From IMG/VR virus record IMGVR_UViG_3300025122_000012, positions 1 through 64,000 of that record: 64,000 bases of DNA; one strand, written 5' to 3'. Shown here piece by piece: positions 3,049 to 62,976 of this stretch. This DNA is from a virus. Position 1 is the stretch's first letter. Each line of letters starts with the position of its first letter. Both the position numbers and the translations under genes were made by a program. The notes beneath the pieces were generated by a model, which worked only from the letters and a program-made list of their open reading frames with translations, did no database searches and had not been told where the DNA came from.

Positions 3049-3056
3049 TAAATAGT
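3049..3056 (-). promoter_or_regulatory. ACTATTTA motif before the 1288-3042 gene
   Basis: One copy of the recurring intergenic motif, here only 6 nt from the ATG. The closeness and lack of a Shine-Dalgarno would imply a very short or absent leader if it is a promoter. Confidence 0.3.
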
Positions 3057-4819: not shown

Positions 4820-5107
4820 TTAGAACAGAGTTGCCCACATCGTTTTAGCCATCAAGCCTACAACCGCCGCCACTACAATCCATAAAATTTTAGTGTTGTT
4901 GTTTTTCCACGTTTCTAAAGCGTCGAGGCGGGAGCCAAGACTACTCAAACGAGCGTACAGACCATTGTCTGGATCGTAAACGGCTTCCTTGATTTTAGAA
5001 ATATTTTCTGCTAGCTCGTCTTGCTTATCAAGAAGAACTTGCATCTTGGTAGCTATCTCTGCCATCATTACAGTAAGATTTTGGGTCGCGACGTCGGGAT
5101 CGGGCAT
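4820..5107 (-). CDS. Coiled-coil protein with C-terminal membrane anchor (XhlA-like, possible holin accessory)
   Basis: The frame opens at a TTG (5128), but ATG at 5107 has TGGAGA 8 nt upstream and is preferred, giving 95 aa. Residues through about 75 form heptad-like helices (KMQVLLDKQDELAENISKI; LYARLSSLGSRLDALETWK), followed by a single hydrophobic segment (ILWIVVAAVVGLMAKTMWATLF) reaching the C-terminus. A coiled coil, then a W-K-basic hinge, then a C-terminal membrane helix is the layout of XhlA-type proteins that act with holins, and of many phage small membrane proteins. Lysis function is therefore possible but unproven; no endolysin gene adjoins it. It begins 32 nt after the groEL stop. 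Confidence 0.65.
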   Translation of the reverse strand: MPDPDVATQNLTVMMAEIATKMQVLLDKQDELAENISKIKEAVYDPDNGLYARLSSLGSRLDALETWKNNNTKILWIVVAAVVGLMAKTMWATLF

Positions 5108-10752: not shown

Positions 10753-11081
10753 AACTCTGGTAAATCCTCTTCTAGTATATCGAATATATTCTGCACCTCG
10801 TCGTGGGTGAGTGCCAGTTCGTCCATAAGTTGTTTGCCTTTGTCCCTGAGCAGCTTCGACTTGCTGGTGCGCGCCTTGGACTGAACCTGTCGCGCGACCT
10901 TTTCCTCATCGAAGAACTTCATAAACAAGTTGTTCTGTGCCAGGTATGACTCCACACACATCCGAAAAAATTCACTTTGATTTTTTACCTGGTCATAGTA
11001 TAAACGTATACGAAAATCCTCGTGCAATTTAGCATCCAAGTAAAAACTTAATACCGACTGTTCGTTGGTGAGTTGCCTCAT
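10749..11081 (-). CDS. Hypothetical protein, possible DNA-binding
   Basis: 110 aa. The N-terminal part (SVLSFYLDAKLHEDFRIRLYYDQVKNQSEFFRMCVESYL) has the strand-helix-helix look of ribbon-helix-helix regulators, followed by a basic central helix (RQVQSKARTSKSKLLRDKG) and an acidic C-terminus. Assignment is tentative. It overlaps both neighbours by 4 nt (ATGA), so it is translated with the IMPDH-like and sigma-like genes. Confidence 0.55.
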   Translation of the reverse strand: MRQLTNEQSVLSFYLDAKLHEDFRIRLYYDQVKNQSEFFRMCVESYLAQNNLFMKFFDEEKVARQVQSKARTSKSKLLRDKGKQLMDELALTHDEVQNIFDILEEDLPEL

Positions 11082-12088
11082 AATTTAAGTATGTGGGTAG
11101 AACTTTCCAGCTGCCCGCTTGCAGTTTGACGTACGAATTGAGCATTCATTTGAAGTTCGTGAAGAGTTCGGGCTCCGGAGTATGAAAACCCACTTCGAAT
11201 TCCTTTTTCTAGATTTTGTAACACGGTAGCTACGGGGCCCTTACACCTAACTGTAGTCGAGATGCCCTCCAACGACGCGGTCCGGTCGCGCCACTCTATC
11301 TGGGCCTTCTCGCTGGCCATCCCCCGGTATGATTTGAATTTGCCATCCAGCGCGTTAACTACGTCGCCAGGAGTTTCATCAGTACCTGCAAGCATAGACC
11401 CAAGCATAACGAAGTCAGCCCCAGCCGCCAGAGCTTTGACAATATCGCCGGCGCTCCGGATTCCTCCGTCGGCAATAATTGGTACTTGCCGTCCTGCTTC
11501 CGCGCAGTCCAATACTGTTTGAAGACCCGGGACACCGTGCCCAGTCTGAATCCTAGTTGAACAAATAGAACCGCCGCCAATATTGCAGCGCACACTATCG
11601 GCTCCCCAGTTGACCAAGTCATTATAACCCTCCTTAGTGGCAATGTTTCCTGCCATAATATGAACTTTGTTACCCAATACTATACGAAGTTTTCTTAACG
11701 CTTCCTTCATCAATATATGATGACCGTGCGCTACATCGATACATAAGAGGGCAACGCCCGTATTAACAAGCGCCGTTGCTCTCTCTAAATAGTCTCCAGA
11801 AGTCCCGATCGCCGCTCCCACCATAGCGTCTGCCGGGAGGCTCCCGACATGGTTACACTGAGTGTCTATGGAATTATACCTGTGTATAATCCCCAGACCT
11901 CCGGCTGCATCCATAGCCGCGGCCATTGGCGACGTCGTTACGGTATCCATTGGGCTGGCGATGATAGGAAGTTTAAATAATAAATCTCCCAGATATGATT
12001 CGAGGGAGATGCTGGCGCGACTTTTAATCTCAGAATACTGGGGCACGAGCAATACGTCATCGTAGGCTAGTCCTTCTTTAATGTTCAT
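11078..12088 (-). CDS. guaB: IMP dehydrogenase/GMP reductase family enzyme lacking CBS domains
   Basis: ATG at 12088 gives the standard opening NIKEGLAYDDVLLVPQYSEI and has GAGG upstream; an ATG 12 nt earlier is less likely. About 336 aa, shorter than cellular IMPDH (about 490) because the CBS pair normally inserted after strand 2 is absent. Key motifs: GNIATKEG, the catalytic loop NIGGGSICSTR with Cys176, ADGGIRSAGDIVKALAAGADFVMLGSMLAGTDE (phosphate site), YRGMAS, and the IMPDH-type ending GFSYSGARTLHELQMNAQFVR. The family oxidises IMP to XMP (guanine nucleotide supply) or reduces GMP to IMP; the C-terminus favours IMPDH. It works alongside the dUTPase, RNR and deaminase genes of the window. 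Confidence 0.85.
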   Translation of the reverse strand: MNIKEGLAYDDVLLVPQYSEIKSRASISLESYLGDLLFKLPIIASPMDTVTTSPMAAAMDAAGGLGIIHRYNSIDTQCNHVGSLPADAMVGAAIGTSGDYLERATALVNTGVALLCIDVAHGHHILMKEALRKLRIVLGNKVHIMAGNIATKEGYNDLVNWGADSVRCNIGGGSICSTRIQTGHGVPGLQTVLDCAEAGRQVPIIADGGIRSAGDIVKALAAGADFVMLGSMLAGTDETPGDVVNALDGKFKSYRGMASEKAQIEWRDRTASLEGISTTVRCKGPVATVLQNLEKGIRSGFSYSGARTLHELQMNAQFVRQTASGQLESSTHILKL

Positions 12089-12326
12089 TTGTAACCTCAT
12101 TTACTGTCTTCCAACAGGTAGGACACGTGAGGCGCACCACCTTCTTTTCTTGTAGCACCGTTACGTGCCACGTTTTAACTGTTTCTTGTGTTCGTTCAAA
12201 GGGTGCCCGACAGAGACAACACTCGGTTGGCTGCTTCATCATCAGCGCAGCTTGTTCTGCCACCCGGCGCTGGGCTGCTTTGGCTGTCTTTCCTTTTTTG
12301 GTGACAACCTTGCGCAGCTTTTTCAC
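12078..12326 (-). CDS. Small zinc-ribbon-like protein
   Basis: 82 aa: a very basic N-terminal helix (MKKLRKVVTKKGKTAKAAQRR), then two CxxC pairs, CCLCRAPF and LTCPTCWK, separated by about 30 residues, which is a zinc-ribbon arrangement. Likely binds nucleic acid or protein. It overlaps the dUTPase gene by 4 nt (ATGA) and the IMPDH gene start by 11 nt. Confidence 0.65.
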   Translation of the reverse strand: MKKLRKVVTKKGKTAKAAQRRVAEQAALMMKQPTECCLCRAPFERTQETVKTWHVTVLQEKKVVRLTCPTCWKTVNEVTNEH

Positions 12327-14419: not shown

Positions 14420-17400
14420 TCAACCTAATAATCTCAAATTTCTTCGAATGGAGCGCGTGGAGAATCCCCACGCAGGGTCATAGTCGAGGCGTCCCATGTA
14501 GGGATGGTTCAAATGAATTCTGTCCTTCCCTTCTACTATACCCCAGCATCTAAACTTTGTCAACATCGAATTTGAATCTATTACAGATACAATCCAATAA
14601 ACTTTGCCGTGTTTGGTTTTCTTTTTAATAACCTCACGAGGAATAAACCACACAAGTTGCAGCTCGGGATCATAATCAGAAATGGGAGGCACATAATAGG
14701 ACTCCAATCTATTCCGGACAGTCTCTGTCATCACCAAGTGCATCGGAAAGATGCCGGTGAGAGTGGTAAGATTATCAATCTCTTCCTCATTGGTGAACTC
14801 CCCTTCATCCCGATAGGTTTCGATGTTCTCTAAAAACTTCTTCTTACTATACACGCGGTCAACAGCGACTGCTGACCAGTAGTGCTTGCGGCCGCTGAAC
14901 CGTACGTCCATCAGGCTATTCATAGCCCCCGACCGCACTAGCACATCTAATGCTTTCTTGTTTAGCTTACTGTATACAATCTCATCGTGGAAAAGGAATT
15001 CCTCAATGTCATTAAATGGACGGTTGGCTACAATTTGTTCAATGGCTGCATCCCCCAATCCCTTGAGGCCACTTAGCGGCTGGTAAAGGCGGTGCTCATC
15101 ATTGGGATCAATCTCCCAGACGAATGACGACGTGTTGATGTCTGCTTCCACAATCTCAAAGCCGTTCGACTTTGCAATATTGATGGCGCGCTCCTTGCGC
15201 TTCTCCGGCTCCTTATCAAGGAATGAAGCCATCCACTCCACTGGGTAGTAATTGTATAGCCATGCGCACTGGAATGAGATTGCCGAGTATGAAACTGCAT
15301 GCGACTTATTGAAACCATAACCCGAGAAGTACTCGAACCTCTCCCACATATCCTCTGCTTCACTATGGCTGATGCCTTTCTCTACGCAACCGTCGACGAA
15401 CTTAGTGCGGAGGGTTCTCTTAACTCTCGCTTCCTTCCCCGTCCCCTTCTTGGTGAGCACCTTCCTTAGTAAGTTTCCCTCATCTAGAGTTAGGTCCTTG
15501 CCTAACTTGTGAGCAAGCAGAGCAATCTGCTCCTGGAAGATAAGGAACCCGTAGGTTTCCTTTGTAACCTCCCTCACGTGCTCATTAAGATAATCGATGT
15601 CACCGGGGTTCGCCTTGGCTTGAATGTATTGCTCGTGCACATTGGCCGATAGGGGGCCCGGTCGATAGATCGAAGTGATGGCAGAGAGATCAATCAACGA
15701 CTTGGGCTTTGCGTTCGCACAGAACTCCTGTGCGCGCTGCTCCGTAAATTGAAAAATTCCCGCGAAGTTTCCCTTCTGAAAAACATTCCTATAAACGCTT
15801 GGATCCTTAAAATCTATCACGTCGGGATGGAGGTGTGTATTATAAAACTCTTTTACATCCTCGAACGTCGGCTCAGGGTGGTTGTGGTGTCGTTTCAAAA
15901 TATGTCGAATCGCACCCTCAATCATTCGAAGTGTCGAGAGTCCCAGCAAGTCAAACTTAATAAACCCTAACGGCTCCAAGTGTCGAACGTGCTGCCCCTC
16001 GGCCCACGGTGCCTGTCGCACGCCTCCCGAACTGATGATCGGCATGTGCTCGTTCAAGTTGTCGGCAATCAAGACGCCCCCCGCGTGACGGGAACAGGAG
16101 CGAACCTGTCCAACCAGCGCCTCGACGTGTGTCTTAATGTGCGGGTACTTTATTAGGTAGCCGCGCAAGGAGGGGGAGAGTTCCATAACTTCTTCCCACG
16201 TGGGAGCATACACTCCAGCCTTAATACCGTGCTTCATCTTCGCTGCGGGAGTTGCTTCCGCAATCATCGTTGACGTTACCTTATTAACTTCTCCAAACTC
16301 CACACCGTAAAACTTTGAAATATCCTTAATCAAAGACTTTAACTGAAGTGTGTTCCAGTTTGAAATTGGGATGACCGAGTTCTTTCCCCAGTCCTCCATC
16401 AGCATTTCCTTTAATTCCATCGGCTCTGCGACATCATAATCGATATCAGGATAGTCTGTGGCGTCCTTCCGCAAGAACCTCTCGAACAGTAGCCCATATT
16501 TAATGGGATCAATCTGTGTGATTCCCAGAGCGTACGCGACTAGGGAGCCCGCCGCGGAACCTCGGCCGGGGCCCGTCAACTGAGCAGCGTTAGCCTTGTC
16601 CGAAATTGCTTTCATCGTCAAAAAGTATTTACTAAATCCTCGGTCCTCGATAACGTCCAACTCCTGCTGGAGACGTTCAGCATACATATCATCTTCGTGT
16701 CGCATGAGGCCTCGCAGCCCCTCAAGCGCGTAGTGCACCAACGCCTCACTATCAGTGAACCCGGCCGGAACTACAAAGTCTGGAAGTTTAACAGTTGTGT
16801 TTGGTGTGAAGTCTTCGATTCTATTGAATGCAATATTGTGCGTTTCAGTAATTGAGTCCATTACAAGCTGATCATCATACTCAACCCCACAGGTCTTGGA
16901 GTAATATTTATAGGAATCCCACATCTGGTTTCCGTTCTTAGGATACAACTCATATCCGATCTCTTCTACGCCGGCGGGCAGTTCTGTGTTATCCTCGGCC
17001 CAGGCGGGGGCTCCCTTCCCAAGCCAACCAAGTCGCTTGTACAACTCGCGGTCCTTCCAAGCATCACCATTGGGGTAGTGACTATCAGCTGTGGAAATAA
17101 GTGTAACCCCAAATTCCTCGCACACTTCGATGATGTATTGATTGAGTTCGTGTTGTTCTGCAATGTTGTTCCACTGCAGTTCTCCGTACCAGCGGTCTCC
17201 GAAGATGTCCACAAAGCGCCGGGTAGTTTCCCTCATTGCTTCCCTCACAGCATCGGGCCCTTCCTCTCGGTTAGCCCAGTAGTTTCCAGCGTAAGGTCCG
17301 CCCAAGCATGCCGACGCGGCGATCACCCCTTCGGAGTGACGGTCAAGCATATCATAATCCACACGCGGGTAACGGTAGAAGTTCTCTTCCTTATAAGACT

Positions 17401-17860
17401 CCGACACAATCTTAAAGAGATTATTTAATCCGGTCTGGTTTTGTGCCAGCAGAATCAAATGTCGTCGACGATTGATCACAGACTTGATGGCCTTCTTAGA
17501 AGCCTCTTCGTCCTCAACAGTCGCGCCAGAAGTGTCCCCTTCTTTTGCCAATGATTTCGCCTGCTTGGCGTCTTCCTTGATGCGATTGTAATCATCACGC
17601 CATTCGTCAATGGACGGAAGGAAGTATGCTTCTACTCCGAAGATGGGCTTAAATTCCTTCCCCTCAGACTTCATCTTCTGCCAGTGTAAAAATTGGTGCG
17701 AGAACCCATTCATGTTCCCGTGGTCTGTGAGGGCAAGTGCTTCGCCCCCGTTCTCATAGCAAAAATCCATATGCTCATCTGGATATCCGATGGCATCAAA
17801 AATTGAGCCGGCTACGCTGTGTGCATGCAGGCCTACGAAAGGAATCTTTTTCTCGCTCAT
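14420..17860 (-). CDS. dnaE: DNA polymerase III alpha subunit-like (family C) polymerase
   Basis: 1146 aa, near the length of bacterial DnaE (about 1160). N-terminal PHP domain: HAHS (His12, His14) and TDHGN (Asp46, His47). Polymerase core: GPGRGSAAGSLVAYALGIT (430-448), the two catalytic aspartates in PDIDYD (Asp472, Asp474) and the third in FIKFDLLGL (Asp637), so all three are conserved. The fingers region and helix-hairpin-helix (GLKGLGDAAIEQIVANRPF) follow, then an OB-like C-terminus (LVWFIPREVIKKKTKHGKVYW). Replicates DNA; the proofreading and clamp partners are not in the window. GAGGGAGAAACAA precedes the ATG, and the start overlaps the nucleotidyltransferase-like gene by 4 nt. A phage with DnaE plus a separate family-A polymerase is unusual. 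Confidence 0.95.
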   Translation of the reverse strand: MSEKKIPFVGLHAHSVAGSIFDAIGYPDEHMDFCYENGGEALALTDHGNMNGFSHQFLHWQKMKSEGKEFKPIFGVEAYFLPSIDEWRDDYNRIKEDAKQAKSLAKEGDTSGATVEDEEASKKAIKSVINRRRHLILLAQNQTGLNNLFKIVSESYKEENFYRYPRVDYDMLDRHSEGVIAASACLGGPYAGNYWANREEGPDAVREAMRETTRRFVDIFGDRWYGELQWNNIAEQHELNQYIIEVCEEFGVTLISTADSHYPNGDAWKDRELYKRLGWLGKGAPAWAEDNTELPAGVEEIGYELYPKNGNQMWDSYKYYSKTCGVEYDDQLVMDSITETHNIAFNRIEDFTPNTTVKLPDFVVPAGFTDSEALVHYALEGLRGLMRHEDDMYAERLQQELDVIEDRGFSKYFLTMKAISDKANAAQLTGPGRGSAAGSLVAYALGITQIDPIKYGLLFERFLRKDATDYPDIDYDVAEPMELKEMLMEDWGKNSVIPISNWNTLQLKSLIKDISKFYGVEFGEVNKVTSTMIAEATPAAKMKHGIKAGVYAPTWEEVMELSPSLRGYLIKYPHIKTHVEALVGQVRSCSRHAGGVLIADNLNEHMPIISSGGVRQAPWAEGQHVRHLEPLGFIKFDLLGLSTLRMIEGAIRHILKRHHNHPEPTFEDVKEFYNTHLHPDVIDFKDPSVYRNVFQKGNFAGIFQFTEQRAQEFCANAKPKSLIDLSAITSIYRPGPLSANVHEQYIQAKANPGDIDYLNEHVREVTKETYGFLIFQEQIALLAHKLGKDLTLDEGNLLRKVLTKKGTGKEARVKRTLRTKFVDGCVEKGISHSEAEDMWERFEYFSGYGFNKSHAVSYSAISFQCAWLYNYYPVEWMASFLDKEPEKRKERAINIAKSNGFEIVEADINTSSFVWEIDPNDEHRLYQPLSGLKGLGDAAIEQIVANRPFNDIEEFLFHDEIVYSKLNKKALDVLVRSGAMNSLMDVRFSGRKHYWSAVAVDRVYSKKKFLENIETYRDEGEFTNEEEIDNLTTLTGIFPMHLVMTETVRNRLESYYVPPISDYDPELQLVWFIPREVIKKKTKHGKVYWIVSVIDSNSMLTKFRCWGIVEGKDRIHLNHPYMGRLDYDPAWGFSTRSIRRNLRLLG

Positions 17861-30231: not shown

Positions 30232-30545
30232 TTGTCTTCAACCCATTCTAAAATGAAGCCCATATCAAACGACCCCTTTGTTACCCATTTGGAAAGGCGA
30301 GCTGCCTCCACCTCGGAGGAGCGAATGCCTTCGCGTTCGCAAATAAAATTCAAAACTTCCTGGATATCTCCTGCTTCTTCGGCACATGGATTATCAATAA
30401 ACTCTTCTACCTCTTCACGTAATTTTTTCAACGCGTAGGCGCGCAAAGTATGGGGGTCTACCTGGTGAACCCGGGCGACCTTCTGGGCTTCTTCGATAAG
30501 TTCCGGAATCTTATCCCGAACGAGCTTGTCGTAATGTTGTTTCAT
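30228..30545 (-). CDS. MazG-like nucleotide pyrophosphohydrolase
   Basis: 105 aa. HYDKLVRDKIPELIEE is the typical start of the phage/archaeal MazG-like family, followed by ALKKLREEVEEFID and EEAGDIQEVLNFI, giving the E-E-x-x-E and E-x-x-D metal-binding helices. These enzymes hydrolyse (d)NTPs to monophosphates; in phages they are thought to adjust nucleotide pools or lower stress alarmones. It overlaps the polymerase gene and the FtsZ-like gene by 4 nt each. Confidence 0.82.
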   Translation of the reverse strand: MKQHYDKLVRDKIPELIEEAQKVARVHQVDPHTLRAYALKKLREEVEEFIDNPCAEEAGDIQEVLNFICEREGIRSSEVEAARLSKWVTKGSFDMGFILEWVEDK

Positions 30546-31741
30546 AACTTGAGATCCTTAAGGTCGCCCAGATTCTTCCCGGCAGCAACGTTTACCTTAA
30601 AGATATCATACCGTGTTTTTTTGAAGGTGTCAAGCAAATTTAAAATTTCATATCGATCTTCTTCGGCCAAATCAATGTAGACCGCATCGTGAATTAAAAA
30701 GGAAATATAACTTTTTCTCCCCCTAAGTGCTTGATACACTTTATAGGCTTGCTCATGTACCATATCAATGGTTGTACTCTGAATTATATAATTCAAGGCG
30801 TGATGTTCGTCCACGTTTTCAATTATGCGACCATACTCTGTCTTAATCGTGCTACCGTCCCAGTATTTTTCTCGCACCACTTCCTTGTTGTACATCTCCT
30901 CTAGGGCCGCATGCGGACGGTCAGAATACAGCCACGCAAATGTCTTAGTCTTTGCTTTCTCGCGGCTTAAGTTGCCGCCAAAGACATTCTGGGCGTTCCA
31001 CGCGTGGATATCATTGGTGGGCTGGCTCTTGCCCGCCAAGGCTAACAGGGTCCGCAGTTCGGCGGCATTAAAATCTAACTCAAGAAGCCAATCATTATGA
31101 GGCCTGATGCATTGGCGAAATTCTTTGTTCATTGTAAGGATGGGAAAGGTGTGCGGCTGGGTTGCGAGGCGACCCGTGATGGTGCCCCACGGATTATAGT
31201 CGCACGTCGGGCGTACAGTTTGGAGCGTCTTTATAAAGTTTTTACCGCGGACCGAACCTAGAAGATGCTGAATGGGCCTCACATCAATATTCAGAGAGCG
31301 TTCTCGAATCGCGGTAAGCATCTCCAACAACTGATACATCTGTTTATAGTTCTCGGGGCGACGGATGGTGTTAAGAACATGTTGAGTAATACTATTCTTG
31401 GCGCTAAGAAACTGGAATAAGAAGTATTCGGGGACTACATCGTAAAAACAATTATGTTGTAGAGAAAGTTGCGCCTTTTCAAAAGCGCGAAGGCATGCAC
31501 GTACTCGTTGTTTGATAGCCTCCCACTCTTCTTGAAGATTTTCGGGGCACATCTCTGTGAGCGTGGCTCCGTTGCTATAGATGCGCGCGATCTCATACCC
31601 ATCGCCCGTTAGGTGAGATGAGTAGTCCCACGTTTTGCCAATACGAGGGAGCGGCGAACGAGGATTAATCATGTTGTTGGCAAAATATCCCACACAATCG
31701 GCGTTGCTATCCAGAACTTGAAAGAGGGGCGCTTCATCCAT
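30542..31741 (-). CDS. Family-A DNA polymerase, polymerase domain only
   Basis: 399 aa. Contains the polA core: TGRLATQP (189-196), motif A LELDFNAAELR with catalytic Asp223, motif B with the exact R-x3-K-x3-F-x3-Y spacing (Arg260, Lys264, Phe268, Tyr272) and motif C IHDAVYID with Asp352. The usual HDE of motif C is HDA, so the glutamate is replaced by alanine. No 3'-5' exonuclease motifs and no 5' exonuclease are present; the N-terminal 150 residues are helical. It cannot proofread. The main replicase is probably the DnaE-like protein; this one may fill gaps or do repair with the stand-alone exonuclease and RecA. Confidence 0.88.
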   Translation of the reverse strand: MDEAPLFQVLDSNADCVGYFANNMINPRSPLPRIGKTWDYSSHLTGDGYEIARIYSNGATLTEMCPENLQEEWEAIKQRVRACLRAFEKAQLSLQHNCFYDVVPEYFLFQFLSAKNSITQHVLNTIRRPENYKQMYQLLEMLTAIRERSLNIDVRPIQHLLGSVRGKNFIKTLQTVRPTCDYNPWGTITGRLATQPHTFPILTMNKEFRQCIRPHNDWLLELDFNAAELRTLLALAGKSQPTNDIHAWNAQNVFGGNLSREKAKTKTFAWLYSDRPHAALEEMYNKEVVREKYWDGSTIKTEYGRIIENVDEHHALNYIIQSTTIDMVHEQAYKVYQALRGRKSYISFLIHDAVYIDLAEEDRYEILNLLDTFKKTRYDIFKVNVAAGKNLGDLKDLKL

Positions 31742-43832: not shown

Positions 43833-46751
43833 TTAATCATTGAAGGAAGCTCCCGTTCTCGTGATATTAAAATCAATGGCAATGAACTCAATAGACCGCG
43901 TAGGCTTCAAGAAGATTTGTGCATACATCACATTTCGATCCACCAAATCGGGGGTTGTCGTTGTCTCATCAAGAACGACCCTAAATTCCGATAGACCGAA
44001 TTGTGTCTTTACCTCTCCCAAGAAAGGATTAACTGCCCCCAGGAAACGGTTCCAGGTGGTCGCCACATTCGGGGAGAACAAGAGGCGCGCAGCAATCTGC
44101 GAGATACGCTTCTTGATGAAAATCATAAGTCGACGCACATTAATACGATCCAAGGCAGACGGAGTTACCTGCAGCGTCTTCTGTCCGAAGATAACAATGC
44201 CCTCCGCAGGGAACTTCGCAATGGGATTAATGCTGGCAGCGTAGAGGTCGTCTCGGTCGACGCGACGTAGCTGGTGCGATACATCCACAACCGGAATGCC
44301 GGCTGCGCCTTCTGTTAAGCCGCCACGATTGAAGCCCGCCGGAGCAAACCAAACCTGTGTCCGGCGCTGCGAGCTTGAGAAAGTACCCAGCGCTGCAATC
44401 GAGGGAGGCAGCCATACAAAGTTGCCACCGATCGTATCGCGGGCGCGAACCCACGGATAGAAAGCACAACCATAAGAGGAATTCAGCGCTCGGTCACGAA
44501 GATTATTAATAATCGTGGTAAGAGTTGATGCCGTATTATTCCTTTGAATTTCGGTGCTATCCTCACGGGGCTGGAAGCCTCCCTTCAGATCAATTACGGC
44601 CAAGGCATCGGCTCGGTCTTCACAAACATTGATGAGATGTCCCGTTAGCCCCTCATGGGTCAAACCCGGGATAGAAGCCAGATTCATTTCCACCACCTCA
44701 GGATCGGCAGTAGAATCAATGGCCCTCTTAATTGAGTTAAACTGATAGCTATTCTGCTCAGTGATGCTAGAAATCCCGTTAAGGAGGCGGCTGTTGAACG
44801 GATCCATCTCTGTAATGTCCAGGCCATCAAATCCACCATAGAGTGGCACAGTAAAGCGATCGAAGCCTTTGCCAAGAACGCCGGAAATAGCACCACTCTG
44901 ATTAGTAAGAGAGGTTCCAGCTGCGTGTGAGCCCGAAACCCAGTAGGCAAAATCGCCTGAGCCCGTAACATCGTCGAGAGTGAAGAACATTGACACATCG
45001 CGGATTCCGCTAGAGGCTCCATTAAACATCTCTGTCACCATACCTCCGCGCGCTAACAGGAGATCAATCGTTGAAGAATCAAAGGTAGAGCTGCCTGATG
45101 TTCGCGTAGTTTGGAGGCCGAAGTACGAATCCGTCGCGGACGGCAGATTGCCTGCCGAAGCACTCACTCGAAGTTCGGGGGCCGGATAAAGAACCGAAGC
45201 GGTTAAGGCCGATCCACTAACGGAAAAGACAGACGTGTTACTGTTCTGGTTTCCCTGCGGTCCATTGGTGTCAGTAGAGGCACTATAGCGACCCGTGGTA
45301 CCAATGGTGGAGGATGCAGAAACCCAGTTTCCGGCAGACTCATTGGTCGTAAGAGTGCTTTCGTCCGCGTACTTGGTGATTCCCTTAAAGCCAAAAGGCA
45401 CCACCGCAGCGTCGACAGCATAATTTTCGACGTCACTTGCAACCTGGACTCGAATAAAGTCTGAACGGTTGTTATAGTTGCCCTCGACGCGGTAGCGTCG
45501 TTCGTCTGCAACCCACACGCGGCGTCGGTCGCCGACCTTGCGGGCCACATAATCTAAAGAATCTGGGTTAAGGTTGCAATTAGTAAATTGCTCAACAATT
45601 TTTACCACATTATCACTATCGTCCAGCTTTCGAACAATAAGGGCAAATGATCCAAATGCATTTGACTCATTGGTCGATATCTTAATGTCCTGAACAGATA
45701 CTTTCAAGTTTTTGTTCGTCCAGGAGCCCGGCTCTTCTAAAGCATGAATAGTAAATAGGCTCGGCATTAGCTCCACATTGAATGCGTTGGCCGCGGTGCC
45801 CCGGTTAGCCGTGTCGCATCCGATAACAATGGGACTCCGTGCGCTTTGCAGAGGGTCTCGATGGCCGTCAGCATCACCATTTGTGGTATTGGTCAGTTCG
45901 ACTACGGCTGCCCATGTACTGCGGCCAGAAGGGATGTTCGCCTTCATGTGGCGATCAAACGACTCTCCCAGCCAATAGTTAGCAGTCGTATTGGAAATCG
46001 TGCTGTTCGTTTTCTGAGGGTTGGTGTTGAAAACCTTGCGAATATACTTAGAATCGCCCTGGTTAAAGTTAAAAGAGGAAGTAAGAGTCGTGCCGGATCC
46101 GTCATAACTATTGATGAGCATCTTAAATTCGTACGGGACACCTGTGTCCTTCACGATGACGGAGGAACCGGTGGCGGTCGTGCCCTCGGTAGCATGGGAC
46201 CCTGTTGCGGCCAGGATGTTGCCAGATAATTGAAGAGTGGTCGAGGCGTTAGTGGTGTAAAATACAGCCGCAAGAGCTCCTTCTACTGAACCAGTACCAT
46301 TAGATCCAGATGCATAGGAAGCGCTTGCCGCAGTCCAAGGAAGAACCTCAAAGACTACGAGACCCCATGCTTTACCGCTTGTGCCGGCATCCCAGCCGGC
46401 TTCTCCTTCGCCCGACAGGGTGCCCGGGCCCTCAGCACCAAGAAGGCGCACGTAACTAAGTGGTGAGCTGTTACGAAGATAGGCCTGTGCGGCGTACGCT
46501 CCATAGGTGGGTGCAGTTGTGCTTGCGCCGGTGCGCCAAACATCGCTGCCGCCAGCGCCGGCGCCGGGGGCGCCAAAAACATTAACAAATTCTTCAAAAG
46601 AATTGACAGTAATGGGCCTTAAGCCCGGGCCCTTCTCTGCTCGGCCGATGATTACCGGGCCGATGCCGGCGGGGGATGCTGGAATCTGTGAATTGTCAAT
46701 TTCATCAACAAAAACTCCCGGCGAAACAAATCTAAAGTTTTTAACGGACAT
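43833..46751 (-). CDS. Tail sheath protein (gp18-like)
   Basis: 972 aa, larger than T4 gp18 (659). Begins MSVKNFRFVSPGVFVDEIDNSQIPASPAGIGPVIIGRAEKGPG, the classical sheath opening (S-P-G-V-x-x-x-E-x-D-x-S, then G-P-V-I-I-G-x-A-x-x-G-P). A long, surface-like Ser/Thr/Gly-rich insertion occupies the middle (about residues 110-600). The C-terminal core is typical: NRGGLTEGAAGIPVVDVSHQLRRVDRDDLYAASINPIAKFPAEGIVIFGQKTLQ, then DRINVRRLMIFIKKRI and NRFLGAVNPFL. The sheath contracts to drive the tube through the envelope. It is preceded by a CTATTTA element and a hairpin. Confidence 0.95.
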   Translation of the reverse strand: MSVKNFRFVSPGVFVDEIDNSQIPASPAGIGPVIIGRAEKGPGLRPITVNSFEEFVNVFGAPGAGAGGSDVWRTGASTTAPTYGAYAAQAYLRNSSPLSYVRLLGAEGPGTLSGEGEAGWDAGTSGKAWGLVVFEVLPWTAASASYASGSNGTGSVEGALAAVFYTTNASTTLQLSGNILAATGSHATEGTTATGSSVIVKDTGVPYEFKMLINSYDGSGTTLTSSFNFNQGDSKYIRKVFNTNPQKTNSTISNTTANYWLGESFDRHMKANIPSGRSTWAAVVELTNTTNGDADGHRDPLQSARSPIVIGCDTANRGTAANAFNVELMPSLFTIHALEEPGSWTNKNLKVSVQDIKISTNESNAFGSFALIVRKLDDSDNVVKIVEQFTNCNLNPDSLDYVARKVGDRRRVWVADERRYRVEGNYNNRSDFIRVQVASDVENYAVDAAVVPFGFKGITKYADESTLTTNESAGNWVSASSTIGTTGRYSASTDTNGPQGNQNSNTSVFSVSGSALTASVLYPAPELRVSASAGNLPSATDSYFGLQTTRTSGSSTFDSSTIDLLLARGGMVTEMFNGASSGIRDVSMFFTLDDVTGSGDFAYWVSGSHAAGTSLTNQSGAISGVLGKGFDRFTVPLYGGFDGLDITEMDPFNSRLLNGISSITEQNSYQFNSIKRAIDSTADPEVVEMNLASIPGLTHEGLTGHLINVCEDRADALAVIDLKGGFQPREDSTEIQRNNTASTLTTIINNLRDRALNSSYGCAFYPWVRARDTIGGNFVWLPPSIAALGTFSSSQRRTQVWFAPAGFNRGGLTEGAAGIPVVDVSHQLRRVDRDDLYAASINPIAKFPAEGIVIFGQKTLQVTPSALDRINVRRLMIFIKKRISQIAARLLFSPNVATTWNRFLGAVNPFLGEVKTQFGLSEFRVVLDETTTTPDLVDRNVMYAQIFLKPTRSIEFIAIDFNITRTGASFND

Positions 46752-49185: not shown

Positions 49186-51009
49186 TTAGACTAGATCTTG
49201 TACAATCACAAGACCATACATGTCTGGACGCACCATCTTCTTGGCGTATCGAGTCATGACTCCCTTGCGGGGCACGAAATCTTCAACACCGAAGATAGTA
49301 GGCGTAGTCTGTAGTGGCACGTACGGAGCGTAAACGTAGCCGCTTTCGAGGAAACTACCTCCGCGTCGACCAACAAGGATCAAACTACGGGGGAAGTATG
49401 GATCGACATAAATGTCGAACTTCTTGGAAAGCGAACCGACCTTCACGGTTCCGATATCACCACGATCGCTATCAGCAGTCACGTTAGCGCGGAAGCCAGC
49501 CGTGAACTCAAGGATGTTGGCAACTTCAGGTCCGCAGACAACAAAGTTGGCAGCACCGCGTAGAGTCTTGCGGTGGATCTGGGCAGAAACATCGTTGATT
49601 GTCTCAACGAGAGTCTCATACCACTCACTAACGTTACCAGTGAAGTCAGGCGTCGTCGACGCACCGATTTCCACACCGGTCTCCCGATTGACGAAGCGTC
49701 CAGCTGCACGGGACCAGTACCGAGTACCAGCCGTAGAGCCACGAACGAGATCTTCAACAATCTCACGATCGATTTCAAGAGCGATCTGCTCAGACAGAAT
49801 CTGAGTAAGCTCGACCTCGGCATCAAGGTTGTGGTAGGCGTTAAGATCCTGTCCTAACTCCGGAGTCCACTTAGCCTTGAGCTTCTTGGTAACCGCGGTG
49901 ACGGCCACACTGTCGACCTTGATGTCGATCTCAGGAATGTTTGGACTATTCTCTAGTCCCCACTCGCTTCCACCAACAACAGAACCAAGGGCTCCGCCAT
50001 TATCAAAGTCATCAGTCTCGGGATAAGACCACGTGTTGGCACCTGCGGCGCCGCCAGTGACCTGCATCGCTAGCGGGCTCGTACCCCCACTATCCGTGGT
50101 CGAAAACGTCATTAGTATATAATCCGAACTTCGATCGCCGACTGCGGCCCCATTTGAGGACGAACCGAACATCGAAAGGCGTCGAACCAGACGACCGGTA
50201 ACAGTATTGGCACTACCGGAAGCATTCAGGATGTTAAATCCACCATGGCCTGCAGTACCAGAAACCTGGATGGCCACAAGGTCATCAAGGTTGAGACGGC
50301 GCCCTTCGGCGTCGAAGTTGGTTACCAAGGTCTCGGCAACAATCACAGACGAACCAGAAAGATCCGGGTCGAACTGGGTCAGGGACCCAAGCGTGACATG
50401 ACTGTCGACGCCACTGGTACTACCCGTCTTGTTATTATCAGTTCCGGCGGTACCGGAAACGACAACACGCCAGAGACTACCAGCGAGGCCGCTTGAGCCA
50501 GTTGGAGACGAATAGCCGTTGTTAAGGGCATACGGGCCCTGCTGCGGGAGTGCACCCGAAGCGAGATCCACACCACCGGTGATCTGCGCACCAACAACTC
50601 CACCACCATACAGTGACGAAGAAGCGGGATAACCCAGACGTCCAGGTGAACTGGAGCGATCCCCAATCTCACCAGAAACGGTGAAATCCAGGAAGAAGAT
50701 GAGGCCCGAAGGCAAACTCATCGGTTGAACGCTGACGAGATCGTTAGCGATCAGTGAGCCGAATACACGGCGGACGAGGGGGAATGCGACAGCCGCAAAA
50801 CCCTCGACGTCGCCAGCTTGCATAGAGCTGGACTCTCGGAGTAACTCTTTTGCTTGATTTTCAAGCAGTCGAGCCATCCCATTCCGAATCGTATCATCAC
50901 CTAGTCCCTCTAGAAGACCGGTACTTTCCCACTTATTAATAAGTGTAGCACCTTCCTTCGCGAGGTCCCGATTAACGATACCTTCGGTTAATTTTTGTAC
51001 GATAGACAT
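49186..51009 (-). CDS. Major capsid protein (gp23-like)
   Basis: 607 aa (T4 gp23 is 521). Opening region ATLINKWESTGLLEGLGDDTIRNGMARLLENQAKELLRES, then FAAVAFPLVRRVFGSLIANDLVSVQPMSLPSGLIFFLDF, the signature of the gp23 family (L-x-x-x-Q...L; P-L-V-R-R-V-F-x-x-L-x-A-N-D-L-V-S-V-Q-P-M-x-x-P-x-G-x-I-F). A Gly/Ser/Asn-rich insertion (about residues 130-350) precedes the HK97-fold core: DLNAYHNLDAEVELTQILSEQIALEIDREIVEDLVRG and FDIYVDPYFPRSLILVGRRGGSFLESGYVYAPYVPLQ. It is likely cleaved near its N-terminus by the gp21-like protease. AGGAGG precedes the ATG. Antisense reading shadows were ignored. Confidence 0.95.
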   Translation of the reverse strand: MSIVQKLTEGIVNRDLAKEGATLINKWESTGLLEGLGDDTIRNGMARLLENQAKELLRESSSMQAGDVEGFAAVAFPLVRRVFGSLIANDLVSVQPMSLPSGLIFFLDFTVSGEIGDRSSSPGRLGYPASSSLYGGGVVGAQITGGVDLASGALPQQGPYALNNGYSSPTGSSGLAGSLWRVVVSGTAGTDNNKTGSTSGVDSHVTLGSLTQFDPDLSGSSVIVAETLVTNFDAEGRRLNLDDLVAIQVSGTAGHGGFNILNASGSANTVTGRLVRRLSMFGSSSNGAAVGDRSSDYILMTFSTTDSGGTSPLAMQVTGGAAGANTWSYPETDDFDNGGALGSVVGGSEWGLENSPNIPEIDIKVDSVAVTAVTKKLKAKWTPELGQDLNAYHNLDAEVELTQILSEQIALEIDREIVEDLVRGSTAGTRYWSRAAGRFVNRETGVEIGASTTPDFTGNVSEWYETLVETINDVSAQIHRKTLRGAANFVVCGPEVANILEFTAGFRANVTADSDRGDIGTVKVGSLSKKFDIYVDPYFPRSLILVGRRGGSFLESGYVYAPYVPLQTTPTIFGVEDFVPRKGVMTRYAKKMVRPDMYGLVIVQDLV

Positions 51010-59806: not shown

Positions 59807-60247
59807 TTACCCTATGCCAGAGGAGCCGGACCAGTTCGAACCACTGGGAGAATTAGCTTTTACCATATTAATGGTGTCGGGGGCGATCCCCGTAAGGCCA
59901 GCAATCACCGAACAGTTATCAGATCCGCTTAAGAATACCTGTGTTACCTTAATGTCAAATCGCACTGGACCCGAGCCACTAGTTGGCGCGATCTCTAAAA
60001 ATCGATTGCCCTGATCAGCGCACGTTGGCACGCCGGCCACTCCGCCGCTAGAAAAGCCAACTCGAAGGGTGGCGTTGGTACTATCAAGATTTGACACCAT
60101 CACCCAGGAGGTAACATTAGGAAAATCAACCTGTGCTATCGCTAATGCGTCAGCCCGACAGCCGATGCTCCCTGTGGCCCACGGTTTACCGCTGACTTGA
60201 TAAGAGCCTACATTTTGAAGACCAACGTTATATTTAAAAGCTGCCAT
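59807..60247 (-). CDS. Virion structural/decoration protein, beta-rich
   Basis: 146 aa, GGAGAG before the ATG. MAAFKYNVGLQNVGSYQVSGKPWATGSIG is a short domain-start style shared by several phage virion proteins; the rest alternates strands (VTSWVMVSNLDSTNATLRVGFSS; GPVRFDIKVTQVFLSG) with a Gly/Ser tail (SPSGSNWSGSSGIG). Two internal cysteines. Probably a capsid or tail decoration. Precedes the fusion fibre gene. Confidence 0.55.
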   Translation of the reverse strand: MAAFKYNVGLQNVGSYQVSGKPWATGSIGCRADALAIAQVDFPNVTSWVMVSNLDSTNATLRVGFSSGGVAGVPTCADQGNRFLEIAPTSGSGPVRFDIKVTQVFLSGSDNCSVIAGLTGIAPDTINMVKANSPSGSNWSGSSGIG

Positions 60248-60288
60248 TATAATTCTCTCCGTTCATTAATTAGTTGTGACTCAGTGCT

Positions 60289-60510
60289 TTAACGCAACAT
60301 TTTTTCTTGTTGGCGCCTTTCCAACTTCTCTCGGGCCCTAATAGCCTTTTTCCGTTTCATCTTTCGGCGCACCGAAGGCTTGATATAATGATTTGTTCTC
60401 TGGCGGTATATTTCTAAAATTTTCTCATTCTTAACTTTTTTAATAAACCTACGAATTAATTTTCCAGACGATTCGTTTCGCCGCAAGTCGACCCGTACAT
60501 TGGTGGCCAT
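60289..60510 (-). CDS. rpsU: Ribosomal protein bS21
   Basis: 73 aa (E. coli S21: 71 aa). MATNVRVDLRRNESSGKLIRRFIKKVKNEKILEIYRQRTNHYIKPSVRRKMKRKKAIRAREKLERRQQEKMLR has the S21 features: an N-terminal strand, E-S-x-x-x-L-x-R-F-K/I-K, a helix, Y-x-K-P-S-x-x-R-K-x-K, and a long basic C-terminal helix. bS21 sits on the 30S platform near the anti-Shine-Dalgarno and is needed for initiation of many mRNAs. Phage bS21 homologues are reported from metagenomic and cultured aquatic phages and can be incorporated into ribosomes. It is embedded among virion genes, so is probably made late and may bias host ribosomes toward phage mRNA. Confidence 0.9.
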   Translation of the reverse strand: MATNVRVDLRRNESSGKLIRRFIKKVKNEKILEIYRQRTNHYIKPSVRRKMKRKKAIRAREKLERRQQEKMLR

Positions 60511-60522
60511 CAGAAGTATACC

Positions 60523-60966
60523 TTATTTCTTTCTCGCGCTCACATCTTGCATGTGGGCTCCCCAACTATTCCCAACAGAGCCAAATAAATTACTAATATC
60601 TACGCCGGCGTCGCCGGCCTCTACACCGGCAAGAGGGGCCGCGGCTGCAGCGCCCTGGAGCTGCTGCGGTCCTGGCGTTGTTCCTTCAAACAAATCTATG
60701 CCATTATAGGCCTGCGAGCCTATCGCTTCCATGAGCTTCTTTTTTTGTGCTTTCATTTTAGATCCCTGTTCCGCACTAAATGTGTTGCGCTGCATACGTG
60801 CTAGCGTTGGATCTACAGGGGGAGAAGCCGCTTCGATTTGCGGGGCGGCAATTCCTCTACTTACTTCGCCAATGATCCCCGAAAGAACACCATCTTCAAA
60901 CATCACCTCCTTGATGCATTCTTTAATCAGCGGCTTCAGAATTTGCTTTAACTGTGATTTTTTCAT
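60523..60966 (-). CDS. Small virion/prohead protein
   Basis: 147 aa. Starts with a basic helical stretch MKKSQLKQILKPLIKECIKEVMFEDGVLSGIIGEVSRGI, a pattern I associate with small head proteins of large marine phages, then Ala/Gly/Pro-rich disordered sequence. It overlaps the next gene by 4 nt (ATGA) and abuts bS21. May be an internal head or core protein. Confidence 0.55.
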   Translation of the reverse strand: MKKSQLKQILKPLIKECIKEVMFEDGVLSGIIGEVSRGIAAPQIEAASPPVDPTLARMQRNTFSAEQGSKMKAQKKKLMEAIGSQAYNGIDLFEGTTPGPQQLQGAAAAAPLAGVEAGDAGVDISNLFGSVGNSWGAHMQDVSARKK

Positions 60967-61538
60967 TTAACGCCCGATAATACCTTCCATCGATTGAGTC
61001 GACTTTCTTCTAGAAGAGCTTCTTCGTAATCGCTCACATCGCCAAGGTTCCCAAAGTCTTCCGGCGTCATATCAAACAGGCGTGCGCCTAGGCCTCCTAG
61101 GCCCTTGGTTTTCTTACCCTGTACATCTCCCGTAACGGGTGCGCCGGGGATATCCTGCGACAACCAGCCGCGGCTTACATACTTCTTTCGGCGGCCGTCA
61201 TCAGTAGCTTTTCGGCCAGCACGGCGGCCGTCAGCAGCTTCTCGATCGCCGCCTGTGAATTTCTTCCACCAGCCTTTCATCCTGCTTCCAACACCATCGT
61301 CAGAAGGGGAGTCGCCGCGGGTGCGGGGGTGTTCCTCCTCGGCTGGAGATGGCAACTCAATATCGTCGTCGGACGGGGGGATGTGGGCACGACTAGATCT
61401 CGGGTCTGGTTCTCCGGGGACGGTGTCAGACTCTACGCTTGATCTTCGACGACGCGGGCGGGAAACCTCAATTTGCAATTCTTCAGCTACCAGTTGGCGA
61501 AGGGCCTCATATTGCGGTGTAGAAGAAGGTTTAGGCAT
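60963..61538 (-). CDS. Hypothetical, highly charged prohead-region protein
   Basis: 191 aa. N-terminal helix (YEALRQLVAEELQIEVSRPRRRR), then a long Arg/Asp/Ser/Pro-rich disordered part, then RKKYVSRGWLSQDIPGAPVTGDVQGKKTKGLGGLGARLFDMTPEDFGNLGDVSDYEEALLEE. No recognised domain. Translationally coupled to the 60523-60966 gene (4-nt overlap) and 4 nt from the protease gene, so likely a head-assembly component or protease substrate. Confidence 0.55.
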   Translation of the reverse strand: MPKPSSTPQYEALRQLVAEELQIEVSRPRRRRSSVESDTVPGEPDPRSSRAHIPPSDDDIELPSPAEEEHPRTRGDSPSDDGVGSRMKGWWKKFTGGDREAADGRRAGRKATDDGRRKKYVSRGWLSQDIPGAPVTGDVQGKKTKGLGGLGARLFDMTPEDFGNLGDVSDYEEALLEESRLNRWKVLSGVK

Positions 61539-61542
61539 ACCA

Positions 61543-62142
61543 CTATTTTCCTATAATATCATCCAAGAGGCCAATGATCTTGTTCTTGCGTTGAATGCTT
61601 TCGTTCATCAATCTACTTTCTGAGATTCCCATAAAGGCATTAGGGGTCGATGGTTCCGAAACAATATCAAAGCAGATCAATTGAAAGTCATCCTCTACAA
61701 TCGTCTTACCCTGCTGCTCGGTCACAGACCCCATTCCGCGAGAGGAGATGCCGATCTTTACACCGGACTCAACAAGGGACCGGAGAATTTGGCCTGAGGG
61801 TGTATTAAGAACCTTCGCTTTGCCCATAACATTCGCCCCGTCCATCCAAACTTCTGTCATCATGTGAGACACATTAGCAAGGTTAATAATAGAAGACTCA
61901 GGATGATCGAGTTCTCCCAGAGCGCGGTTATCTTCTACGAGGCCCGCATATTTCTTCACTTCACGAGTAAGGATTGGGCCCGGGTAGACGCGTCCGTTAC
62001 CATTTTGAACGTCACATTCTTGAAGTTTACCCGTGAGCATCAGGCCCCCCTCACGGACAAAACTCTTCTCCGCTTCTGTCAGAAGATCCTGACAGATGCC
62101 GCCTTCACATAATTCATAGTACTCGCGGAGAAGCTGGGGCAT
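61543..62142 (-). CDS. Prohead core protease (gp21-like, S80 family)
   Basis: 199 aa. Characteristic blocks: LMLTGKLQECDVQNGNGRVYPGPILTREVKKYAGLVEDNRALGELDHPESSIINLANVSHMMTE, where His in ELDHP is the catalytic histidine, and VESGVKIGISSRGMGSVTE, where the serine of ISSRG is the nucleophile; then the C-terminal helix. This is the T4 gp21 fold that cleaves scaffold and capsid proteins during maturation. The order protease then scaffold then capsid matches T4-type heads, with fibre genes inserted between. It ends 4 nt after the 60963-61538 gene begins downstream. Confidence 0.9.
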   Translation of the reverse strand: MPQLLREYYELCEGGICQDLLTEAEKSFVREGGLMLTGKLQECDVQNGNGRVYPGPILTREVKKYAGLVEDNRALGELDHPESSIINLANVSHMMTEVWMDGANVMGKAKVLNTPSGQILRSLVESGVKIGISSRGMGSVTEQQGKTIVEDDFQLICFDIVSEPSTPNAFMGISESRLMNESIQRKNKIIGLLDDIIGK

Positions 62143-62148
62143 TCAGTT

Positions 62149-62796
62149 CTACCTACTCTTCAGGATGTCCGCTATGGTTTCCTGGACAAGTCTCTTGGTT
62201 TCGGAGCGCGAGAGGTCGCTTCGGGCCTCTTGCACAGCGCTTTTCTGGAAGGTGTTTCTTAATTTATCGTTAAGAGCACTGTATATCTTCTGATTTACCT
62301 GCGCGAGTCCATTCTCTTGTAGCCAGGGACCGCCGTCGCCCTGCTCTAAACAGGCTAAGTATCCTACTGCATTCCTCATCAATTCACATACTTCTTCACC
62401 CTCTGGGCACGGAGGGAGGGTCCGGAGTACCTCGCCACATATAGCTGCAGCGGCTTCGCCGCCGCGGGTAGAGCCTCCGCCTCGGCCGAGCTGTAGGGCT
62501 GCAGCCTCGTCCAACTTGTCCACATACTGGGTTATCATTCCTTCCAGATTGCCTCCTGCCACATTTCGAGGAGCTTCATCATCTGGGCGCAGCGCTGCGC
62601 CGGCTCGGGCTTCGGGATCTCTAGATGCAGAAAGAAGGCCCGATTCTAATATGCCCCTTAGCGCTTTCGTGGCGCTCAGCACTATTTGATCAAGCTGCTT
62701 AGCTATATTTGCCGACATCCCCTGCTCAAACAATACTGTCTCATGCAAGAAGTATCTTGGGTCTATTCGTTTTACATTTTTTCTATATCGTGCCAT
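62149..62796 (-). CDS. Hypothetical head-cluster protein with duplicated N-terminus
   Basis: 215 aa. MARYRKNVKRIDPRYFLHETV is an almost exact copy of the start of the small gene at 62839-62967. The rest is helical and acidic (NIAKQLDQIVLSATKALRGILES; AALQLGRGGGSTRGGEAAAA; VQEARSDLSRSETKRLVQETIADIL). No enzyme motif. Located just upstream of the prohead protease, so an internal head protein is likely. GAGGA lies 10 nt before the ATG. Confidence 0.6.
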   Translation of the reverse strand: MARYRKNVKRIDPRYFLHETVLFEQGMSANIAKQLDQIVLSATKALRGILESGLLSASRDPEARAGAALRPDDEAPRNVAGGNLEGMITQYVDKLDEAAALQLGRGGGSTRGGEAAAAICGEVLRTLPPCPEGEEVCELMRNAVGYLACLEQGDGGPWLQENGLAQVNQKIYSALNDKLRNTFQKSAVQEARSDLSRSETKRLVQETIADILKSR

Positions 62797-62805
62797 TATC
62801 TTATT
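62734..62805. repeat. 72-bp direct repeat, copy A (start of the 62149-62796 gene)
   Basis: Matches 62905-62976 with only 4 mismatches in 72 positions, all synonymous in the shared reading frame. Includes the ATG and 9 nt upstream. Confidence 0.9.
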
Positions 62806-62838: not shown

Positions 62839-62967
62839 TCACAAGTTTGTCCGGGATGCTCTCCCGATTGGTCCTCTTGGCCCCCGCCCATCAGCTGATC
62901 GATCTACTGTCTCGTGCAAGAAGTATCTTGGATCGATTCTTTTTACATTTTTTCTATATCGTGCCAT
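62839..62967 (-). CDS. Small gene with a copied N-terminus (42 aa)
   Basis: ATG 62967, stop TGA at 62839-62841. The first 21 residues are MARYRKNVKRIDPRYFLHETV, identical to the next gene; the next 21, DRSADGRGPRGPIGRASRTNL, are basic and different. The four nucleotide differences from the sister copy are all synonymous (CGA/AGA, ATA/ATC, GAC/GAT, CAT/CAC). It has no strong ribosome site of its own. Either a short protein under selection or a decaying duplicate. Confidence 0.5.
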   Translation of the reverse strand: MARYRKNVKRIDPRYFLHETVDRSADGRGPRGPIGRASRTNL

Positions 62968-62976
62968 TATCTTATT
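62905..62976. repeat. 72-bp direct repeat, copy B
   Basis: Second copy of the N-terminal segment, 171 bp from copy A. Confidence 0.9.

Follow-up and report, generated by a model that had tools for sequence, protein, structure and literature searches.

A small gene in the virion block of a T4-like phage encodes ribosomal protein bS21, and we find that this gene is close to a core gene of the lineage to which the phage belongs. The gene lies within a 64,000-nt stretch of DNA (hereafter the window), which is part of a 76,206-bp virus record, IMGVR_UViG_3300025122_000012. bS21 is the commonest ribosomal protein known from viruses. The best explanation of our data, and a probable one, is that a functional viral bS21 enters the host 30S subunit and supports Shine-Dalgarno (SD)-dependent initiation while virion proteins are being synthesized.

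The open reading frame occupies exactly 60289-60510 on the - strand, starts with ATG and encodes 73 aa with a net charge of +20. A first-pass annotation made from the sequence alone had read this basic product as bS21, and the reading holds. The protein scores above the curated cut-offs of both Pfam PF01165 (39.9 bits against a cut-off of 27, E=3.3e-10) and the NCBIfam equivalog TIGR00030 (30.5 bits against 28.95), and it matches the PHROG 'ribosomal protein S21' with E=1.1e-3. Sequence searches of the PDB gave informative matches to bS21 chains throughout. An AlphaFold2 model built from 46 viral relatives (pLDDT 90.5) places helices at residues 15-29, 31-39 and 45-72, and the predicted fold is bS21-like, with an N-terminal helix, a hinge and a long C-terminal helix. 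When this model was compared with the PDB by Foldseek, the best matches were bacterial bS21 chains at weak E-values (0.28-0.43, prob 0.84-0.89), because bS21 is tiny; such values are to be expected when so short a protein is modelled outside the ribosome. A chance reading frame is excluded since frame, protein and position recur across dozens of diverged relatives. Membership of the bS21 family is confirmed.

The record is a fragment of a T4-like myovirus. Its genes include those for a gp23-type capsid, sheath, prohead protease, baseplate hub, UvsX, a DnaB-type helicase, a DnaE-type polymerase, ribonucleotide reductase and a gp32-like protein, and the capsid, protease, sheath, UvsX, helicase and gp32-like genes are those by which the T4-like supergroup is recognized. 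Among isolates its TerL is most similar to those of Flavobacterium phage immuto and Microcystis phage Mel-JY01 (42-45% identity), and the long relatives are records of 100-194 kb. The bS21 gene does lie inside the virion gene block, as had been annotated: it sits between the prohead protease and major capsid protein genes with the portal and TerL genes upstream, all on the - strand. The features around it are as follows.

61543..62142, - strand: prohead (head maturation) protease, phrog_207, E=1.8e-55
60963..61538, - strand: hypothetical protein at a variable position, overlapping orf60523 by 4 nt
60523..60966, - strand: orf60523, conserved hypothetical directly upstream of bS21 in nearly all relatives, no family match
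60511..60530, - strand: ribosome site of bS21, AATAAGGTATACTTCTG-ATG, with AAGG at 10-nt spacing, weak in the window member
60289..60510, - strand: bS21 (rpsU-like), 73 aa, with the helix-1 signature GKLIRRFIKKVK, a one-residue hinge insertion, the KPS motif and Arg58 at the F. johnsoniae Tyr54 position
60248..60288, - strand: gap after bS21, with CTAATTA; relatives have CTATTTA here, some 17-39 nt before the next gene
59807..60247, - strand: orf59807, conserved hypothetical neighbour directly downstream of bS21
49186..51009, - strand: major capsid protein (gp23-like), phrog_138, strong SD (AGGAGGT)
43833..46751, - strand: tail sheath, 972 aa

Several other features of the record were noted. 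A direct duplication of about 66 nt (62700-62800 and 62871-62971, - strand) takes in the beginning of the gene at 62149-62796, from its start through codon 21 (MARYRKNVKRIDPRYFLHETV), and leaves a truncated 42-aa version upstream. The proteins encoded at 60523-60966 and, in the remainder of the record (L012), at 4828-5103 and 11868-12227 resemble one another at their N-termini in a short basic/amphipathic stretch, K-x-x-LKxI-[IL]-x-E, which might possibly be a targeting signal or cleaved leader that they share for the prohead. The window further holds, on the - strand, a phage GroEL (5139-6710; phrog_5725, E=1e-137), an IMP dehydrogenase/GMP reductase-type gene (11078-12100; PF00478, E=5e-100) that is a possible purine metabolism gene and, at 14420-17860 and 30542-31741, a DnaE-type (Pol III alpha) polymerase, here in a T4-like phage, together with a short family A polymerase-like ORF (399 aa, PF00476). 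Searches of the window for tRNAs and Rfam families gave no match.

On nearly every related contig the genes follow one another on one strand in a common order: TerL, portal, two small genes, protease, orf60523, bS21, orf59807, fibres, orf51031, capsid, neck and sheath. This first sample was itself selected for bS21 (80 loci found with a bS21 alignment, plus ten from the first scan), so a second sample was drawn with the protease only. In this sample 45 loci extend 3.5 kb or more downstream; bS21 is present in 44 of them, with place and strand unchanged throughout. In the single exception (L165) bS21 was not found nearby or elsewhere in the 43.6-kb fragment, and orf60523 has moved downstream. 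From our reading of this sample set the lineage is mostly marine. A further sample drawn around the protease of Mel-JY01 yielded bS21 in 32 of 43 loci, always on the same strand; of the 35 loci extending as far as the capsid gene, 31 have it. The bS21 and protease genes share a strand in the window and in every relative where both were detected. Mel-JY01 (PP395634) is a cultured phage and, as in the window, its annotated RpsU occupies the same slot (protease - hypothetical - bS21 - ... - capsid) on the same strand. Its protease is 43% identical to that of the window, its bS21 helix 1 reads YMLKIFKRKVKE where the window has LIRRFIKKVK, and it has a freshwater cyanobacterial host. In view of the two protease-based samples and the slot in Mel-JY01 we regard bS21 as nearly a core gene in this T4-like lineage.

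A tblastn search of 50,697 phage records with the window bS21 gave no match at an E of 0.01 or better; it missed the Mel-JY01 protein, which was found only through synteny, and Pelagibacter phage HTVC008M was not among the matches either. Flavobacterium phage immuto has no bS21 in the corresponding slot, and the 75-aa protein found there is acidic, unlike bS21.

Positions that are strongly conserved among 69 distinct viral sequences include E13, R20, R21, F22, K25, K27, K44, P45 and S46, and the residues that are kept match cellular bS21 (E13, R20-R21-F22, R/K36, Y/H42, K44-P45-S46); this conservation is partly built in, as LIRRFIKK and the KPS block served as search patterns. Variants found via one block alone, for example MIRRFLRK and FIKRFIKK, retain the same core. 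With cellular bS21 (E. coli, F. johnsoniae 7JIL, MAG RS826) the window protein shares the family score, the RRF and KPS motifs and the long basic C-terminal helix. It differs from them in its LIRRFIKK helix 1, in the Lys that phage bS21 has at position 27 in place of the acidic Asp/Glu of cellular bS21, in the additional hinge residue typical of its clade and in charge, which is +10 and +14 in the cellular proteins. The C-terminus of this clade (60289-60300 in the window, - strand) reads [ML][FL]R, and the terminal Arg is present in 43 of the 44 sequences long enough to show it.

We scanned 84,980 cellular genomes for LIRRFIKK. Only one of the 101 stretches found lies in a bS21 relative, and this one sits on a phage contig, with protease, bS21 and capsid in the usual order, that was binned into an Acidiferrobacteraceae MAG whose own bS21 is of a different, ordinary kind. 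This version of helix 1, which lies close to where the ribosome binds mRNA, therefore looks phage-specific. Host assignment via bS21 similarity was rejected, the only cellular-genome match being this phage contig. The bS21 of HTVC008M, like that of the window, belongs to a marine myovirus, and it has been described as acquired from the SAR11 host (Mizuno et al. 2019, PMC6375957), whereas for the window bS21 no cellular source emerged.

SD signals are abundant in these phages. SD matches of 4 nt or longer precede 55-68% of starts in four genomes from the lineage, compared with 13-18% of internal ATGs, and a G peak stands at the classical SD distance upstream of starts. The first-pass annotation had supposed that virion genes often have moderate ribosome sites, and here it must be corrected: in the window record such a match precedes 86% of virion-block genes against 45-50% of the others, with median pairing energies of -6.4/-6.5 versus -3.7/-4.0 kcal/mol, a contrast that may be inflated; start-site choice is less sure for small non-virion genes. 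Across the four genomes the difference between virion block and rest gave p=0.018, 0.012, 0.0009 and 0.14, the last being a non-significant trend. The strongest ribosome site is that of the capsid gene (median -10.9 in 23 loci). The site of bS21 is moderate across loci (-6.0), with a GTG start about half the time, and that of the window bS21 is weak (-4.0). If bS21 acts, it would act on an SD-rich late transcriptome, and a rescue of weak sites is not needed.

The T4-type late promoter TATAAATA is not enriched upstream of virion genes, and sigma-70 promoters and terminators around bS21 are at or below shuffled expectation. Another motif, CTATTTA, is strongly strand-biased in three genomes (17 vs 1, 35 vs 6, 36 vs 3) and concentrated in their few noncoding bases. 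Several conserved virion genes have it some 17-46 nt before their start; it precedes orf59807 (41 of 50 loci), orf51031 (18 of 28) and the neck gene (10 of 10), compared with none of 62 loci for bS21, 67 for orf60523 and 66 for the protease. Before orf59807 the window and its nearest relatives have CTAATTA in place of CTATTTA. Occurrences of CTATTTA on the window - strand include those at 3049, 5130, 26400, 46785, 49125 and 52240, and the relatives G004 and G005 show the same. CTATTTA is a candidate for a promoter specific to these phages that would replace the T4 late TATAAATA, and it may belong to a late or to another class. On the simplest reading bS21 would be the last cistron of a TerL-portal-protease unit, and a new unit would begin right after it.

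How might a phage bS21 work? Produced from the final cistron in the run of genes from TerL and portal to prohead protease, it would compete with host bS21 for the exchangeable site on the 30S platform beside the anti-SD. It would thereby keep or make 30S subunits competent for SD-dependent initiation, and virion proteins could then be produced in large amounts from SD-rich phage mRNAs. bS21 belongs to those ribosomal proteins that can be replaced on already assembled ribosomes, and the bS21 of HTVC008M incorporates into E. coli 70S (PMC6375957). By analogy with this pelagiphage protein, the window bS21 may well be incorporated into the host 30S. The position of its gene suggests late expression, and a preference of the altered ribosomes for phage mRNAs may follow. 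In lake Bacteroidetes phages bS21 and structural genes are co-expressed, and a late swap favouring phage transcripts has been proposed (Chen et al. 2022, PMC9723584). That such a swap favours phage mRNAs is thus a published hypothesis (PMC9723584, PMC6375957), and a plausible one. It might even be that bS21 is obligatory in the core genome of this marine myovirus lineage and that its remodelled helix 1, found only in phages, gives rise to a 30S specialised for the phage and tuned to virion mRNAs with strong SDs. Such a late ribosome programme would differ from the SD-less Bacteroidetes case; we offer this extension tentatively and consider it doubtful in this full form.

In vitro, E. coli ribosomes carrying the pelagiphage bS21 retained only about 5% of their activity in GFP synthesis (PMC6375957); incorporation could therefore inhibit translation rather than favour it. 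In line with this result and with the absence of the phage helix-1 signature from cellular bS21, a phage bS21 in the 30S might poison or dampen host-type initiation; this would release capacity or prevent abortive responses but would not itself favour phage mRNA. We consider such a shut-off of the host unlikely. The bS21 gene stands at the end of the prohead gene run, when virion proteins have still to be made, the phage genes use the same SD signals, and the E. coli result may reflect cross-species incompatibility. Less probable still is that a former bS21 now works in the head, as a DNA-binding internal head protein or an assembly factor. The fixed place between protease and capsid and the high positive charge would fit this, but charge by itself would permit drift, whereas RRF, K-P-S and the aromatic residue before KPS are conserved and the protein still scores as bS21 by curated cut-offs. 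Moreover, viral bS21 is known to bind ribosomes (PMC6375957).

For the lake Bacteroidetes phages Chen et al. propose that bS21 sequesters the 16S 3' tail, with an aromatic residue at the Tyr54 position stacking on the anti-SD (PMC9723584). These phages resemble the window in having bS21 near terminase, portal, prohead protease and capsid genes and a helix 1 that differs from cellular bS21, and the TerL and capsid of the window are closest among isolates to a Flavobacterium phage, though at only 45-47% identity. However, the residue corresponding to F. johnsoniae Tyr54 (sequence checked against 7JIL) is Arg58 in the window and Arg in 57 of 69 relatives, with R, Q, K and A listed and no aromatic. 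The hosts of the lake phages lack SD, whereas SD is strongly enriched at gene starts in the window lineage, and their bS21 lies on the strand opposite the structural genes, not on the same strand as in the window and its relatives. The Arg and the use of SD therefore disfavour anti-SD blocking, which we regard as very improbable here. Least credible of all is a recently acquired host gene carried along without function: the gene is small and viral bS21s have been acquired repeatedly (PMC6375957), but this reading is already refuted by conservation, the gene keeping its place and orientation in 44 of 45 loci with no near cellular match and close pairs showing purifying selection (omega of roughly 0.02-0.12 where dS exceeds 0.1, read from such pairs only, as dS has reached saturation between the window and the nearest of its diverged relatives).

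Earlier work has already described bS21 encoded by viruses, its location close to the prohead protease (in 310 of 900 published cases) and the idea of a late swap (PMC9723584, PMC6375957). To these our analysis adds near-fixation in a mostly marine T4-like lineage, seen in a protease-selected sample, the same-strand placement as last cistron, the phage-only helix 1 and the SD contrast. Because bS21 is near-fixed in a large, SD-using lineage that has a cultured relative, Mel-JY01, and shows a contrast in SD between virion and other genes, the idea of specialised ribosomes becomes testable outside the Bacteroidetes, where the anti-SD is not sequestered. If a functional viral bS21 does enter the host 30S in this way, phages would as a matter of routine alter the host ribosome at its initiation site during particle production.
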